Positions 1,138 to 22,178 of a stretch of DNA of 38,771 nucleotides are shown here, piece after piece. The notes below the pieces were generated by a model. It was not told the origin of the DNA, did no database searches, and was given only the letters and a program-made list of their open reading frames with translations. Position 1 is the first letter of the stretch, and each line of letters begins with the position of its first letter. A program made the position numbers and the translations under genes. The stretch is from an uncultured Bacilli bacterium (lineage in GTDB: Bacteria; Bacillota_I; Bacilli_A; RF39; UBA660), in the NCBI GenBank assembly GCA_947632205.1, contig CANROK010000007.1, positions 1-38,771 of the forward strand, written 5' to 3'.

Positions 1138-1812
1138 TTAAGAATTAAATATTGCATCTATTTCATCATTAGTTAACTCTGATAAATCTTCTTCTTTAAT
1201 AAATCCTGATAAATCAATAATTCCACTTAAAATATCCCATTGTTGTTTATCTTTATTCCATACAGCATTATCTCCAGCTTTGTTATGTTCACTAGCATTA
1301 ACAATATTATAAAAATCTCCATGTTCTGCAGTATCTTGTAAAGCTTCTAAATCGCTATAGTTATCTACATCACCTTTATATTTAATAACTGAAGATACTT
1401 GCTTTTTAATTAAAGTTTCGACTTGATCTTGAGTTTGATATTTTTTGCTTGATAATGTCGTTTCAACATCACTAGCAGTTTGATATCCTTTTTCTTCCAA
1501 TGTACTATTTGATACATAATCGGTTGGAATATCTGTACTTTTAGCAAGTCCTAACTCTTCTGATGTTAATGTTCCTTTAAGTTCTTGACCATCTAATGTT
1601 GGAATACCTTTTAAACTATCAAACTCACCATCAAATTGGTTTGTTCCAGCATCATTTATTTTTTTTACTAACTCATCAGTTAAGTTATTATCACTTAATA
1701 CTTTATATTCACTTTCACTACCTGTTTTATGTTCTCTTTTTTGAAATAAATTTCCTAATAATAGTTTTAAATGTGATAAACCATTATTATCTAAAAATTT
1801 TTTTGCTCCCAT
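1138..1812 (-). CDS. Phage tail fibre / receptor-binding-like protein
   Basis: N-term KKFLDNNGLSHLKLLLGNLF and C-term LTNDEIDAIFNS resemble Firmicute phage tail fibre ends. Confidence 0.6.
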   Translation of the reverse strand: MGAKKFLDNNGLSHLKLLLGNLFQKREHKTGSESEYKVLSDNNLTDELVKKINDAGTNQFDGEFDSLKGIPTLDGQELKGTLTSEELGLAKSTDIPTDYVSNSTLEEKGYQTASDVETTLSSKKYQTQDQVETLIKKQVSSVIKYKGDVDNYSDLEALQDTAEHGDFYNIVNASEHNKAGDNAVWNKDKQQWDILSGIIDLSGFIKEEDLSELTNDEIDAIFNS

Positions 1813-14320: not shown

Positions 14321-14935
14321 TTACTTATTTAATTCGGCAAATTGTTCAGGATTTTCTTGCTTTAATTTAAGTCTTTCTCTATATCCCATTTTTTCAAAAG
14401 CTTCTTTTGTAACTTCGGTTGTTACATTTCCCATTCCAGGCATATTTGCTGGTTTATTTGGATTTTCAAAAATACCGCTTTTGTCTTTTGTTAGATAATC
14501 AACTATTTCGTTTATGCCTTTTCCTTTGTTTTCGGATTTACCTAATTCAGATTTAATATCAGCAATCAATCCATTTTTCGCATAATCACTTGCAAACTTT
14601 TTGTCTTTAAGTGAATTTAAGATGTTAGTAGTTAATACTTCATCTTCTTGTTTCGCCTTTTCATTGGCTATTCTTTGGTTTTCCTTATCTTGAAATTCCT
14701 TAATTTGTTTTTTTAGGTCTTCTAGTACATTAGAATCAGGAACATTTTTTAATTTTTCATTTAAATCATCAATGGTTTTTTTATAATCATTTATTTGATT
14801 ATTTAGCTTGTCTTCAGCTTTTTTTACTTCTACATTAACTATTTTTCCATTTTCTGTAAGAATACTTTTAATTTCTTCTTTTGAAAGTTTTGCTTTTCCC
14901 TCTCCAATTTCTAAATTTTCTAAAAAATCATTCAT
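14321..14935 (-). CDS. Capsid scaffolding protein (GP20-type)
   Basis: Coiled-coil, position directly upstream of MCP, C-term YRERLKLKQENPEQFAEL. Confidence 0.75.
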   Translation of the reverse strand: MNDFLENLEIGEGKAKLSKEEIKSILTENGKIVNVEVKKAEDKLNNQINDYKKTIDDLNEKLKNVPDSNVLEDLKKQIKEFQDKENQRIANEKAKQEDEVLTTNILNSLKDKKFASDYAKNGLIADIKSELGKSENKGKGINEIVDYLTKDKSGIFENPNKPANMPGMGNVTTEVTKEAFEKMGYRERLKLKQENPEQFAELNK

Positions 14936-15024
14936 ATATCTTTACTCTCCTTCCACTTTTTACAGAGGTTGTGTCCTCCTAGATTTTTAGATATTTGCTA
15001 GTCCTACCATTGCTATGCCACACG

Positions 15025-15050
15025 AAAAAACCCGATATTTCTATCGAGTT
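15025..15050 (-). terminator. Intrinsic terminator of element 1
   Basis: Minus strand AACTCGATA-GAAA-TATCGGGTT followed by T-run. Confidence 0.8.
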
Positions 15051-15223
15051 ATACAGAAATTGTTAATAATCTTATCATTAACAAAATCAGATGCTCCTTC
15101 TACATTAAGTAGATGAGTTACATAGTGCTATTTTATAAGCACTGTACTGATAATATATTGAGACCACTTGTTCTCATTAAGTGTTACCAATCGACTAATT
15201 GATATCTATATTATCAGTACACT
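15025..15223 (-). ncRNA. Putative structured leader RNA, element 1
   Basis: Long stem (AGUGUACUGAUAAUAUA / UAUAUUAUCAGUACAG), second hairpin AGUGCU-8nt-AGCACU, terminal GAAA-loop intrinsic terminator; similar architecture at 20779-20985. Confidence 0.6.
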
Positions 15224-15255
15224 AATAATAAAATACACAAAATATAGTATGAAAT

Positions 15256-15305: not shown

Positions 15306-15347
15306 GAGTTCCTCGCTGGGCATTTGCCCGACGAGGGCTCTTTTTTT
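15306..15347 (+). terminator. Plus-strand intrinsic terminator, GC-rich
   Basis: CCTCGCTGGGC-ATTT-GCCCGACGAGG then TTTTTTT. Confidence 0.8.
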
Positions 15348-17079
15348 ATTTTGCTTTAGAAAATATTTTTATTAATTCATCGCCTTTTACTAAAATCAAA
15401 TCTTCTATCCATCCTCTATAAGGATTATTTAAGGTTTTCATTGCCAATTCAATAATTTCATCATTTGATTTTTCTTTAAAATGTCTAAAATCAATAATAA
15501 ATTTTTCTGCTTGTTTTTTAGTTTTCGATTGTTTCATGAATCTTTCAATGGCAGTTTCAAATTTACCATTTAAAGTGGGAGTCTTTAAATCCCATTTTTT
15601 ATTATTCCATCTATAATCTGGTGTTGGAACTTTTAAACCACTATTGCTAATATCTGTTATTCTTGGAACTATATGTATATCTCCGCCAAATGTTTCTTTC
15701 AACCATAATGCCATATTATATTCATCTCCACTTTTAGGTATTGGATGAACAGTTTCTTTTCCTTCAATCGGATGTTTTATACTATTATCATCTATAAAAT
15801 AATCATCATATTTTATTTCATGACTATTTGGTGTAGCTTTTTCCAAATAATCTTTTGTTGCATCTATATAATTATTACTAATATTATTTGCATTCTTTAT
15901 GCTAACTTTTTTATATCCCTCAACTCTCAATCTTTCGATTCTAGTAGGCAACCCACTTACATTATGCAATTCTTGATATTTTTGCCTTAATTGATTGATT
16001 TTTTCTTGACAATGATATATTTCATCAGTATCATTTATAGCTTTGGCTCCTATTTGCCTATCTTCATATTGCCTTATTTTAGTTTCTATATGTCTTTGAA
16101 GTTGTGTTCCTTCATACATAGTGTAATGTTCACTATCAAATTCAAAACCTTTTAAATTAGCTTTTTTATCAGCTTCTAATTGCTCATCGGTATATAAAGG
16201 TTTATTAATGCCTAATACTATTGGTACTTTTAAATGCTTACAATTTAAATCACTTACTTGTCTATTAAGATTATTGTTAATTTTATCAAATTCTTCTATG
16301 CTAAATTGTTTCCCGTCTATATCAAACCAACCAGGTTTTTCGCTGCTCGAATGATCAGGAGCTGGATATATATGATGTACAACTTCTACTCCATCTGCAC
16401 CAAATTCTTTACCAAATTTTTCTTGTAATTCATTTGATAAATTTTTTATCCCATCATTTAAATTCATTCTAATAGAACTATCTAATCTTCTATGGTATCC
16501 AGTAGCATAATTAACTTCTTGAATGCCTTTTGAAGTTAATTCTTTCATAACTTTTCTCATAGTTTGTTCAAAACTATCTCTTCCCATAGAAATATTTAAA
16601 ATTGCTTCATCAGTAATTTTTTGATACACTTCACTCAATTTAGTATATTCTAAAATTCCATTGCCATTTAATATTGCATACGAAGAAGTTTCTGCAATAT
16701 TGGTAAATTTATCTGCTGTTATTTTTGCTAAAGCATTAACCATTTCTTTTAACTCTATATTATTGTCATAAGGTATAAAGTTTATTTTCTTATATTCGTA
16801 AAATTGCTTTGCAAATGTTTGATTTTTCTTTGCTACTTCTTCAAAAATATCATATATATCTTTAATACTTTTATTAGTTATTTCAGCAATTTTACTAATT
16901 ATTTCATTCATGTCATTACCATATTTAATTGATTGCATTACTTCTCTTAGTTGTGTTGGAGTTAATGTCCCTATTTTATTTATTTGCTTTCCCAGTTTAT
17001 TAATCATAAATAGATTTAATTCTTCTATTCTATCAACTAATCGTTCTGATAAGCGTTCTAATGCTTCTTCGCTTAGCAT
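15346..17079 (-). CDS. Phage minor capsid protein (Phage_min_cap2-like) with C-terminal CdiA-CT/BECR-like nuclease toxin domain
   Basis: HHIYPAPDHSSSEKPGWFDIDGKQFSIEEF...NCKHLKVPIVLGINKPLYT (min_cap2); C-term ALWLKETFGGDIHIVPRITD...TPDYRWNNKKWDLKTP...KQAEKFIIDF..WIEDLILVKGDELIKIF. Confidence 0.75.
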   Translation of the reverse strand: MLSEEALERLSERLVDRIEELNLFMINKLGKQINKIGTLTPTQLREVMQSIKYGNDMNEIISKIAEITNKSIKDIYDIFEEVAKKNQTFAKQFYEYKKINFIPYDNNIELKEMVNALAKITADKFTNIAETSSYAILNGNGILEYTKLSEVYQKITDEAILNISMGRDSFEQTMRKVMKELTSKGIQEVNYATGYHRRLDSSIRMNLNDGIKNLSNELQEKFGKEFGADGVEVVHHIYPAPDHSSSEKPGWFDIDGKQFSIEEFDKINNNLNRQVSDLNCKHLKVPIVLGINKPLYTDEQLEADKKANLKGFEFDSEHYTMYEGTQLQRHIETKIRQYEDRQIGAKAINDTDEIYHCQEKINQLRQKYQELHNVSGLPTRIERLRVEGYKKVSIKNANNISNNYIDATKDYLEKATPNSHEIKYDDYFIDDNSIKHPIEGKETVHPIPKSGDEYNMALWLKETFGGDIHIVPRITDISNSGLKVPTPDYRWNNKKWDLKTPTLNGKFETAIERFMKQSKTKKQAEKFIIDFRHFKEKSNDEIIELAMKTLNNPYRGWIEDLILVKGDELIKIFSKAK

Positions 17080-18379: not shown

Positions 18380-20020
18380 TTATTCTCCTTTTCTTCTCCA
18401 AATTGGATTAAGCCCATATCGCACAGCATCTATATTATGGTTATTCTTATCTACATAACCACTAATATAATTTCCGTCTTTATCTTGGTCATATTCGTAA
18501 GTAGTAAATTCTTGAGCAGTTTTTGGGCACCTTTTAGGGTCTATTACAATCTTTACTAAACTGCTTAACCATTTCATTGAATATTCCACACTATCAGGTC
18601 CTTTCTTCGCTCCTCGCATTAATGATCCATAACTTTGAAAATCTCCTATAGATTTTGGCTCTGCACTATCTGCTGTTATTAAATCATCATTTTTTACATT
18701 TTTTTCTTTTTGCAAATCTTCCCAAACTTTGGCATTACTCGTTTTATTAACTACATATTCATCAAATATATACAAAGTAAGTTTGCTAGGTTGATAACAC
18801 ATTTTATTCCATGCTAATGGATCTGGATACCAACCAAAGTCTATGCCTTGATACAAATAATCAAAATTACTTATTTCTTCATCTGTAATTTCTCTTAATT
18901 CAACATTTTCAAAAACATTTCCACCATCACCAGTGGCTTTCCCTAAATACTCATTTTCATATATATTTGGAGCCGTTTCTTTCACAAAATTTGCTTCATC
19001 AATAAAAGGTTGCCCTAACCATTCTACTGGTGCATCCAAGTATGTACTATTATGTACCAATCTATTTGATTTAGGTAATATTTTTTCCTTATTTACAAAA
19101 TGATTATTTGATTTTGGAGTGTTGTATATTCTAAACACTATAAAATCATTTCCACCACGGATTACAGATTGGTCTATCTTTCTAACCTCATTCATACCAT
19201 TCATTTGGTCAAATTCTTCATATATAACTAACCCAATGTATTTACCCTTTGGAGGTTTTATTGACTTTATTTTACCTGGATCATCGGCTCCTCTAAAATA
19301 AATAATTTGTCCTGTATCAGTATTTCTTATTTCTAAAGGGCTTTTTGTTTCTTTCCAATGCTCTTTAACTTTTGGATAGCTTTCTGATAATTTATCAATT
19401 CCCCATAGCATTTGACTATAAATACTATCTTTTAATGTATTTCCTACTTTCCTAATACATATAGCACACATATTAGGATTATTTTCTAATATTTCAATAG
19501 CTTTCTCACTGACATAAGAAGATTTAATTGAAGCTCTTCCACCTTCAAGCCAATATTCTAAATATCTTCTATCATCTATATATCTATTTACATCTACAAA
19601 TGCTTTTCCAATATCTTTTGCTGGCATAAAAATAAGAGGTTTTTCTTCCTCTTGGTTTGTATTTCTCATTTCAGCAAATTTTAATTCTTTATCTATTAAA
19701 ATTCCATAAGCACTTGCTAAGTCTTTAACATTTGTAAAAGCATCTATTTTGTTTACTTTATTATCAATTGCATCAACTATTTTAGAAATCGTTCTTAATC
19801 TTTTTGTGTTAGTTTTATCAATCATTTCTAACATAGTTTTAGTATTTTCTTCTTTTTTTTCTTCAACTTTTTTCAAACATTCAGGATTTTGTTTAATTAT
19901 TTTTCTAACAGTAGTGTCAGTGGTTTTATTTAACCTTGCTGTTTCAGAATAATTTTGAGTACTAACATAATCTGCTATAATTTTTTTCTTCTTTTCATCA
20001 GTTAATTTTACTCTAGGCAT
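18380..20020 (-). CDS. Terminase: fused small (HTH) and large (PBSX-like) subunits
   Basis: N-term HTH (LTDEKKKKIIADYVSTQNYSETARLNKTTDTTVRKIIKQ) plus TerL motifs: GGRASIKSS (Walker A), LVIYEEFD (Walker B), QGIDFGW, ITADSAEPKSI, NIDAVRYGL. Confidence 0.8.
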   Translation of the reverse strand: MPRVKLTDEKKKKIIADYVSTQNYSETARLNKTTDTTVRKIIKQNPECLKKVEEKKEENTKTMLEMIDKTNTKRLRTISKIVDAIDNKVNKIDAFTNVKDLASAYGILIDKELKFAEMRNTNQEEEKPLIFMPAKDIGKAFVDVNRYIDDRRYLEYWLEGGRASIKSSYVSEKAIEILENNPNMCAICIRKVGNTLKDSIYSQMLWGIDKLSESYPKVKEHWKETKSPLEIRNTDTGQIIYFRGADDPGKIKSIKPPKGKYIGLVIYEEFDQMNGMNEVRKIDQSVIRGGNDFIVFRIYNTPKSNNHFVNKEKILPKSNRLVHNSTYLDAPVEWLGQPFIDEANFVKETAPNIYENEYLGKATGDGGNVFENVELREITDEEISNFDYLYQGIDFGWYPDPLAWNKMCYQPSKLTLYIFDEYVVNKTSNAKVWEDLQKEKNVKNDDLITADSAEPKSIGDFQSYGSLMRGAKKGPDSVEYSMKWLSSLVKIVIDPKRCPKTAQEFTTYEYDQDKDGNYISGYVDKNNHNIDAVRYGLNPIWRRKGE

Positions 20021-20778: not shown

Positions 20779-20985
20779 AAAAAAGAACATATTTCTATGC
20801 TCTTTATCCCCATTGGTAGTACCTTTTAATTGATACTATACCGATAATATATATGTACATATTAGGTTTCGTTAGCCTCCCACTATTAAGTCTTTACTAA
20901 AACACGATATTGCAAATCTCGGGATCTTTCAAATGCTTCATAGCCATACATATAGGTTGATTTCCTATATTATCAGTACACTATC
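20779..20985 (-). ncRNA. Putative structured leader RNA, element 2 (paralogue of element 1)
   Basis: ~20-bp stem GATAGTGTACTGATAATATA/TATATTATCGGTATAGTATC, hairpin AGTATC-8nt-GGTACT, GAAA-loop intrinsic terminator; 18 nt identical to element 1 (AGTGTACTGATAATATAG). Confidence 0.6.
20782..20805 (-). terminator. Intrinsic terminator of element 2
   Basis: Minus strand AAAGAGCATA-GAAA-TATGTTCTTTTTT. Confidence 0.75.
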
Positions 20986-21032
20986 AATTAAGATAGTGTT
21001 AGTAGCTTATAAGTTACTAAGTATCAGGGGTT

Positions 21033-21060
21033 TTGACATATAAGATAATTTATTTATAAT
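21033..21060 (+). promoter_or_regulatory. Consensus plus-strand sigma-70 promoter TTGACA-16-TATAAT overlapping a 23-bp palindrome (21043-21065)
   Basis: TTGACA 21033-21038; TATAAT 21055-21060; AGATAATT-TATTTAT-AATTATCT. Confidence 0.55.
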
Positions 21061-21122: not shown

Positions 21123-21530
21123 TTATTTTTTTTCTGATTTATATAAATTTCTACAATGTCTTGGAGTATAATTAAACATTCTTGCTATTTCATCCCATTT
21201 CCAATGAAGATTATCTCTAAAATATACAATACATTCCCCTTTTGTTTTTGTTTCTAACATTTCTCCTATCTTGTTTATCGCTACTTCTCTATATGCATTA
21301 TACGATTCTCTAACTGCTTCAAATTCTTCTCTAGTACCATCGGCTTTGATCATTCTATTTAACATTAAATCTCCTCTATAATTCGTGCTTGAGATTATTT
21401 CTTTATATGTTATAGCTCTTATTTCAAAAAAGCCAATTTTTAATTTATCAGCCAATTCTAAAGCACGATATTTTAATTTAGTCATTTCCCTTAATACTTC
21501 ATCTAAAGCTAATTCTTTTCCTGATATCAT
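21123..21530 (-). CDS. ArpU/DUF1492-like phage late transcriptional regulator
   Basis: C-term HTH-like HWKWDEIARMFNYTPRHCRNLYK; sits at the early/late junction. Confidence 0.65.
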   Translation of the reverse strand: MISGKELALDEVLREMTKLKYRALELADKLKIGFFEIRAITYKEIISSTNYRGDLMLNRMIKADGTREEFEAVRESYNAYREVAINKIGEMLETKTKGECIVYFRDNLHWKWDEIARMFNYTPRHCRNLYKSEKK

Positions 21531-21548: not shown

Positions 21549-22178
21549 TTAATCACCTCTATCAAAATGTTCTTGTAATTTACCGTTTTTCATTCTTACA
21601 TATTTTTGAATAAAATTTCTATAATTAATAACAAATCCTTCAACATTTCTCTTAACTTTTTCACAATATTTTTTATATATACTATCCAAATGTTCTTTAG
21701 TTGGTAAAATATTTAATTCAGCTACTTCTGGTACTATTCCAATAAAGTTAGGAATTTCTTGACTATCAAATACATATTTAAATAAGTTATGGTCATACAT
21801 TAAATTATATAAATTAAATTCTTCATCTATATTTGCTTTAGCAAACATATAAAGCTTTTTATCAAATTCATCAATAGTATATTTTAGACAACCCATTCCA
21901 AGCCATTCACCACAAATAACACTGCCTTCGTGAATATCGTTTAATATATCTTTGTTTGCTTTAATCCATTCATAAAGTCCTTTATAAAGAATATCTTTTA
22001 CATCTTCTAATTCATCGATGGAAAATATATTTTTCCTCTGTGCTATATAAATAACATTTTCTTTTTTGAAAATGCACATATTACTTCCATCTAATTTTTC
22101 AGTAATGTATACTTTATCTCCACTACAACTTAATCTTTTCGTTTTTGGATATATTTCTTTTTTTATCATATTTTTCAC
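21549..22178 (-). CDS. RNA ligase (Rnl2-like nucleotidyltransferase)
   Basis: Motif I TEKLDGSN, motif IV EGFVI, motif V KYVRMK. Confidence 0.75.
   Translation of the reverse strand: MKNMIKKEIYPKTKRLSCSGDKVYITEKLDGSNMCIFKKENVIYIAQRKNIFSIDELEDVKDILYKGLYEWIKANKDILNDIHEGSVICGEWLGMGCLKYTIDEFDKKLYMFAKANIDEEFNLYNLMYDHNLFKYVFDSQEIPNFIGIVPEVAELNILPTKEHLDSIYKKYCEKVKRNVEGFVINYRNFIQKYVRMKNGKLQEHFDRGD

Follow-up and report, generated by a model that had tools for sequence, protein, structure and literature searches.

In phage lambda, the pR′ leader (6S RNA) with tR′ is a late leader of about 200 nt; a terminator closes it ahead of the late genes, and late control depends on the Q protein; to our knowledge, this leader holds no RNA frame comparable to the one described here, and the likeness is that of a leader and a terminator ahead of late genes. 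The put RNA of phage HK022 is about 70 nt long, consists of two adjoining stem-loops and occurs twice per phage (PMC9378689). ROOL RNA (RF03087) is a noncoding RNA of phages and prophages located near tRNA islands, and GOLLD is a phage RNA, also near tRNAs, whose linkers sometimes hold tRNAs and whose expression increases at lysis (PMC12286853).

Two copies of a structured RNA were analysed in a 38,771-nt stretch of DNA from an uncultured Bacilli bacterium (the window), which spans an entire contig of a 1.4-Mb assembly. Each copy, or unit, has a constant frame of three helices (P1, P2 and P3) and a variable insert closed by P2. ROOL and GOLLD are the closest known RNAs by habitat, and put is the closest by layout. 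Like ROOL, the units are phage-encoded and close to tRNAs, and ROOL adjoins units in relatives; however, the ROOL model has 574 positions and begins beyond the unit, whereas the units combine a constant frame of ~100 nt with variable inserts and tandem repeats, and none of them matches the ROOL model. GOLLD RNAs differ in that they often exceed 800 nt, and the GOLLD model has no match in the window or in 51 relatives. The putL and putR elements resemble the units in that each phage has two of them, situated in a leader, with adjoining stem-loops and with terminators downstream, but these ~70-nt RNAs with two stem-loops belong to the early operons of a lambdoid phage and carry neither inserts nor arrays. 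Skipping-rope RNA (RF02924), a small RNA that shares the leader in one relative (L040), has a separate Rfam model that the units do not match.

A search of the window with Rfam 15 gave zero matches at the gathering score; the hits below threshold (E ~1-5) are unrelated, and none is credible at E<=5. A known Rfam family was therefore rejected, and together with the strong covariation described below, this bears out the suggestion of an earlier note, made from the letters of the window, that the elements could be an undescribed phage RNA family. The architecture of frame and insert was not found in the open-licence literature searched, and the unnamed candidates of human-microbiome RNA surveys (e.g. 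PMC8040213) lie outside this comparison. Phage noncoding RNA islands are known as a habitat, and what appears to be new is a family with a frame and cargo in which P1, P2 and P3 covary across phages. The units form a widespread and strongly supported RNA class of uncultured gut Bacilli phages that is missing from public RNA-family libraries, and a constant frame with a variable insert is unusual among natural noncoding RNAs.

Two elements in one phage contig

Both elements lie on the minus strand and share the same architecture, in which P1, P2 (closing the insert) and P3 adjoin one another and are followed by an intrinsic terminator. Their parts are as follows, all on the minus strand.

20779-20998: element 2, structured RNA including P1
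20979-20998: P1 of element 2, hairpin CACTATC-TTAATT-GATAGTG (sequence, and helix covariation in relatives)
20966-20978: 5′ strand of P2 of element 2, TACTGATAATATA (sequence and covariation)
20852-20965: variable insert of element 2 in the P2 slot, 114 nt
20839-20851: 3′ strand of P2 of element 2, TATATTATCGGTA (sequence and covariation)
20818-20837: P3 of element 2, hairpin AGTATC-AATTAAAA-GGTACT, 6 bp with an 8-nt loop (sequence and covariation)
20779-20805: intrinsic terminator of element 2, AAAGAGCATA-GAAA-TATGTTCTTT and U-tract (sequence, and terminator enrichment in relatives)
15020-15250: element 1, with a frame common to element 2
15220-15249: P1 of element 1, weaker and long-looped (covariance-model match)
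15219-15207 with 15157-15145: P2 of element 1
15206-15158: insert of element 1, 49 nt
15143-15124: P3 of element 1, AGTGCT-TATAAAAT-AGCACT
15029-15050: intrinsic terminator of element 1, AACTCGATA-GAAA-TATCGGGTT

In element 2, the TG at 20980-20979, which is shared with P1, adds two pairs to P2 and gives a helix of 15 bp. The covariance model matches element 1 at 15121-15249(-) with 59.4 bits. The 18-mer AGTGTACTGATAATATAG is present in exact copies at 20965-20982(-) and 15206-15223(-), and at up to three mismatches it gives 3 matches against 0.07 expected from shuffles. Both elements fold more stably than shuffled sequences (z = -3.9 for element 2 and -5.4 for element 1). The arms, the loop lengths and the exact shared 18-mer had been described correctly in the earlier note. 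The interval that it gave for element 2, 20779-20985, does hold a real structured RNA, but P1 was overlooked and the end belongs at 20998; its insert lengths of 113 and 47 nt for elements 2 and 1 were close to the 114 and 49 nt found here. The similarity of the two elements is limited to P1, P2 and P3, and their inserts belong to no common sequence class.

The window encodes an integrase and a phage structural module, with a late operon (terminase, portal, minor capsid, scaffold and capsid) on the minus strand, so the phage is most likely temperate. The genes next to the elements, all on the minus strand, are listed below.

21123-21530: small HTH/Myb-like protein, candidate late regulator at the early/late junction, upstream of element 2
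18380-20020: terminase large subunit (Pfam Terminase_3, E 9e-25), downstream of element 2
15346-17079: minor capsid protein 2 with a C-terminal CdiA_C domain, upstream of element 1
14321-14935: head scaffolding protein (Pfam Phage_scaffold), downstream of element 1

A homologue of the HTH/Myb-like gene adjoins the element in L005, the nearest relative of element 2 (88% identity across the element), and in relatives its position is occupied by regulators of phrog_36/248.

Covariation, strand and form of the frame

Searched against 193 genomes of the host family, a first covariance model built from six sequences gave matches in 12. A second model was built from 16 sequences; with it and with scans of viral and genome contigs for DNA patterns, 123 sense-strand units were collected at 79 loci, representing 102 distinct cores. 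Most come from phages of the rumen and gut that share a single host family. In the order-level sample, 32 of 385 genomes carry units, every one of them from the host family of the window, and the class and phylum samples added one genome with a unit outside this family; the named matches are mainly uncultured Bacilli, Tenericutes and Clostridia MAGs. No credible homologue was found among the annotated phage isolates of INPHARED or the plasmids of PLSDB. The host range is narrow.

In the 16-sequence seed alignment, 98.1% of cells are paired by standard pairs, a percentage biased towards the structure by hand editing of the alignment before counting. Compensatory double changes occur in 17 of its 26 pairs, which none of 500 shuffles reaches, and pairing falls to 23-55% when the partner is slid by 1-3 columns. 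Among the 97 distinct complete cores of the wider set, which was fitted to the covariance model, P2 pairs 4 and 5 are G-U in 39% and 71%, respectively, with zero mismatches, and A-C mismatches are rare. The G-U pairs are confined to the late-gene strand. The frequent G-U at fixed P2 positions and the rarity of A-C fix the strand and exclude a DNA-only palindrome; the element is an RNA of the late-gene strand. The covariation-like changes that the earlier note had pointed out are thus borne out for P1, P2 and P3 across relatives, but the terminator stems are weak evidence of this kind, GAAA-looped terminators being common in these genomes. Nor is the similarity of the two elements that of one short DNA palindrome, as the helices show covariation among relatives.

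These pairings also bear on how the frame may fold. P2 is 13-15 bp long, and the two pairs at its outer end are in competition with pairing at the base of P1. The columns of this P1/P2 extension change in threes in the 97 cores, from C-G-C to U-A-U and from A-U-A to G-C-G. Minimum-free-energy folds give a single long rod, in which the 3′ arm of P1 can pair with the 5′ arm of P3. However, a G-G mismatch breaks the rod in 91 of the 97 cores, and each G pairs instead with a C in P1 and P3. Because this near-invariant mismatch interrupts the rod, a predicted Y form of P1, P2 and P3 was taken as the main structure with the rod as an alternative, and the rod as sole structure was rejected. The frame is conserved in sequence as well as in pairing, and this conservation beyond pairing suggests that it may have a specific binding partner. 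A second P2 subtype, GAGTAGATATA...TATATCTATTC, coexists with the main subtype inside arrays.

Exchangeable inserts and the role of the units

A survey of 123 downstream and 61 upstream proteins placed the units at two sites. At site 1, a late or transcriptional regulator is followed by the unit and then by terminase or HNH; at site 2, a minor head or portal protein is followed by the unit and then by scaffold or major head. Both sites are occupied in the window and in its relative L051, and the layout noticed earlier, a pair of copies in one phage that each precede a late cassette, recurs across many phages. Tandem arrays of 2-4 units are frequent at site 1, which often also holds tRNA genes, ROOL (three loci) or skipping-rope RNA (one locus). 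The tRNA genes are near units in many relatives, with none in the window itself. ROOL begins 4-6 nt after P3 of the unit in L065 (8343-8929) and L095 (7168-7759) and lies upstream of the unit in L021 (1760-2350), and in L040 skipping-rope RNA is ~20 nt ahead of the unit. Situated where late operons begin, beside ROOL, tRNAs and terminators, the units provide a testable handle on late roles of structured phage RNAs and possibly on late-transcription control in these phages.

The inserts fall into many sequence classes, 59 of them singletons at a shuffle-calibrated threshold. In the classes with at least two members, the predicted folds contain in total 24 pairs with double changes and 3 that are broken, a count in which low-identity pairs may be misaligned; the insert of element 2 shows zero double changes in its predicted structure against L005, its only close relative. 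The terminase large subunit of L051 is 75% identical to that of the window, and its inserts at both sites are unrelated to those of the window, yet what follows the element-1 terminator is conserved. The site-2 insert of L051 (minor head/scaffold) recurs ahead of the terminase large subunit in L107, with 8 of 34 pairs compensatory and none broken, and one common class is present in L036 (before the terminase small subunit) and L087 (after portal). Inserts are thus swapped between phages and between sites. Since their classes cross sites and relatives differ at one site, insert identity does not track the downstream gene, and gene-specific regulation by the insert is unlikely; the coordinated control proposed in the earlier note is a conjecture, and the conserved frame could still act in cis. 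Units with almost no insert (3-20 nt, in L005, L025, L039 and L019) imply that the frame needs a role of its own.

Some inserts are derived from tRNA. One L001 unit holds a complete tRNA-Glu in its P2 slot (ARAGORN or RF00005 cloverleaf), and a T-arm is present in 3 of 108 inserts, against 0.02 in shuffles, and in 3 of the 22 slots of the second P2 subtype, the L001 tRNA-Glu being in both counts. Neither ARAGORN nor RF00005 calls a cloverleaf in element 1 or 2. The insert of L072 (~1163-1330, plus strand), which P2 closes, looks like the body of a tRNA-Leu whose parts are permuted: the T-arm comes first, then the 3′ strand of the acceptor, a linker, the 5′ strand of the acceptor, GGGTGAAG, and the D-arm. 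ARAGORN makes no tRNA call on it, and a circularly permuted tRNA-Leu is one possible reading. The idea that inserts in general are permuted tRNAs was rejected, as ARAGORN on tandem-duplicated units yields just the ordinary L001 tRNA-Glu. Altogether, the inserts supply dozens of new candidate RNA folds, some of them tRNA-derived.

How these features might work together is suggested by their combination. A constant, repeated frame, exchangeable and structured inserts that are partly tRNA-derived, noncoding RNA neighbours and a frequent terminator fit a late-expressed scaffold RNA carrying exchangeable cargo RNAs that act in trans, a reading to which we give about an even chance. The units would then be a modular noncoding RNA of the late leader in phages of one small-genome gut Bacilli family, in which a constant Y-shaped frame of P1, a 15-bp P2 and P3 would hold, in the slot closed by P2, an RNA that folds on its own and can be exchanged. 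They would be transcribed together with the late genes, and the intrinsic terminator would let the leader build up as a separate RNA; the frame would protect, process or recruit something common to every unit, and the inserts would act on the host or the infection, not on the neighbouring gene. We believe with similarly balanced confidence that this is a natural RNA display system, with a constant frame in tandem and unrelated folded RNAs plugged into one permissive slot and exchanged. Its cargo, perhaps equally probably, would comprise complete tRNAs, acceptor/T-arm mimics, possibly the permuted tRNA-Leu of L072, and dozens of unknown folds. The units with almost no insert and the conserved sequence of the frame count against trans-acting cargo, and so does the position upstream of late genes, always on the late strand, as it would be equally expected of a cis element.

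Such a cis element is proposed by the main rival, put-like antitermination, in which the nascent frame would bind RNA polymerase and cause read-through of the terminator after the unit and of further ones in the late operon, with the inserts as tolerated passengers. Terminators are indeed enriched around the units: 40 of 85 clusters have one within 90 nt downstream, where shuffles give 3.8 and 4% of random windows have one, and in 18 of the 40 it lies within 8 nt of P3. Upstream, one is present in 17 of 83, against 1.8 in shuffles. The site-2 unit of L042 and that of L051 each have a terminator on either side, so the transcript must cross one. Promoter-like sites are also enriched upstream of site-1 arrays (15 of 56, against 4.0 in shuffles), and HK022 put has a similar layout with two copies per phage (PMC9378689). 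However, antitermination needs no tandems of up to four units, no structurally conserved inserts exchanged between sites and no tRNAs in the slot, and we regard this account as possible but rather improbable.

It is more doubtful still that the frame is chiefly a processing stalk, like those of rRNA, at which an RNase III-type enzyme would cut P2 or the longer rod and free the insert. The long rod of the minimum-free-energy folds, the competing pairings supported by the three-way column changes at the P1/P2 extension and the tRNA in the slot of L001 are consistent with this, but the G-G mismatch breaks the rod and its Gs pair in P1 and P3, and RNase III does not require conserved sequence of the kind found in P2. 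A processing role may be combined with the scaffold and its cargo. A DNA element (pac/cos, a recombination site or a protein operator) that is an inverted repeat by chance would account for the palindromic sequence and for the terminase next to one site; the compensatory changes, the G-U pairs on one strand only, a site far from terminase, the tandem arrays and the structured inserts make it highly improbable, and the first two led us to reject a DNA palindrome or pac site.

Further sequences near the elements

Directly upstream of the candidate late regulator lies an RNA ligase-like gene (21549-22178, minus strand; phrog_548, E 8e-12). It was not found in the other 78 loci, and a link between the element and RNA ligase was rejected. 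A consensus scan of the window found no minus-strand promoter that stands out upstream of element 2; a perfect TTGACA-16-TATAAT promoter at 21033-21060 on the plus strand is directed away from the element, antisense to the regulator gene. The C-terminal CdiA_C part fused to minor capsid protein 2 is toxin-like, and ADP-ribosyltransferase or PBECR2 domains are present among the proteins encoded upstream in relatives. An ORF at 152-1117 on the minus strand, where the tail-side gene cluster ends, has collagen-like G-x-y repeats, as read from its translation. Beside arrays, there are tRNA-like sequences with extra bases in L001 (2455-2570, minus strand) and L026 (1148-1267, minus strand), the latter matching RF00005 at 32.8 bits. 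Finally, the stretch CGTGTGGCATAGCAAYGG.AGGACTAGCAA after the element-1 terminator (14990-15033, minus strand) is conserved in L051 and more loosely in L029 and L042, and it is possibly another leader RNA.
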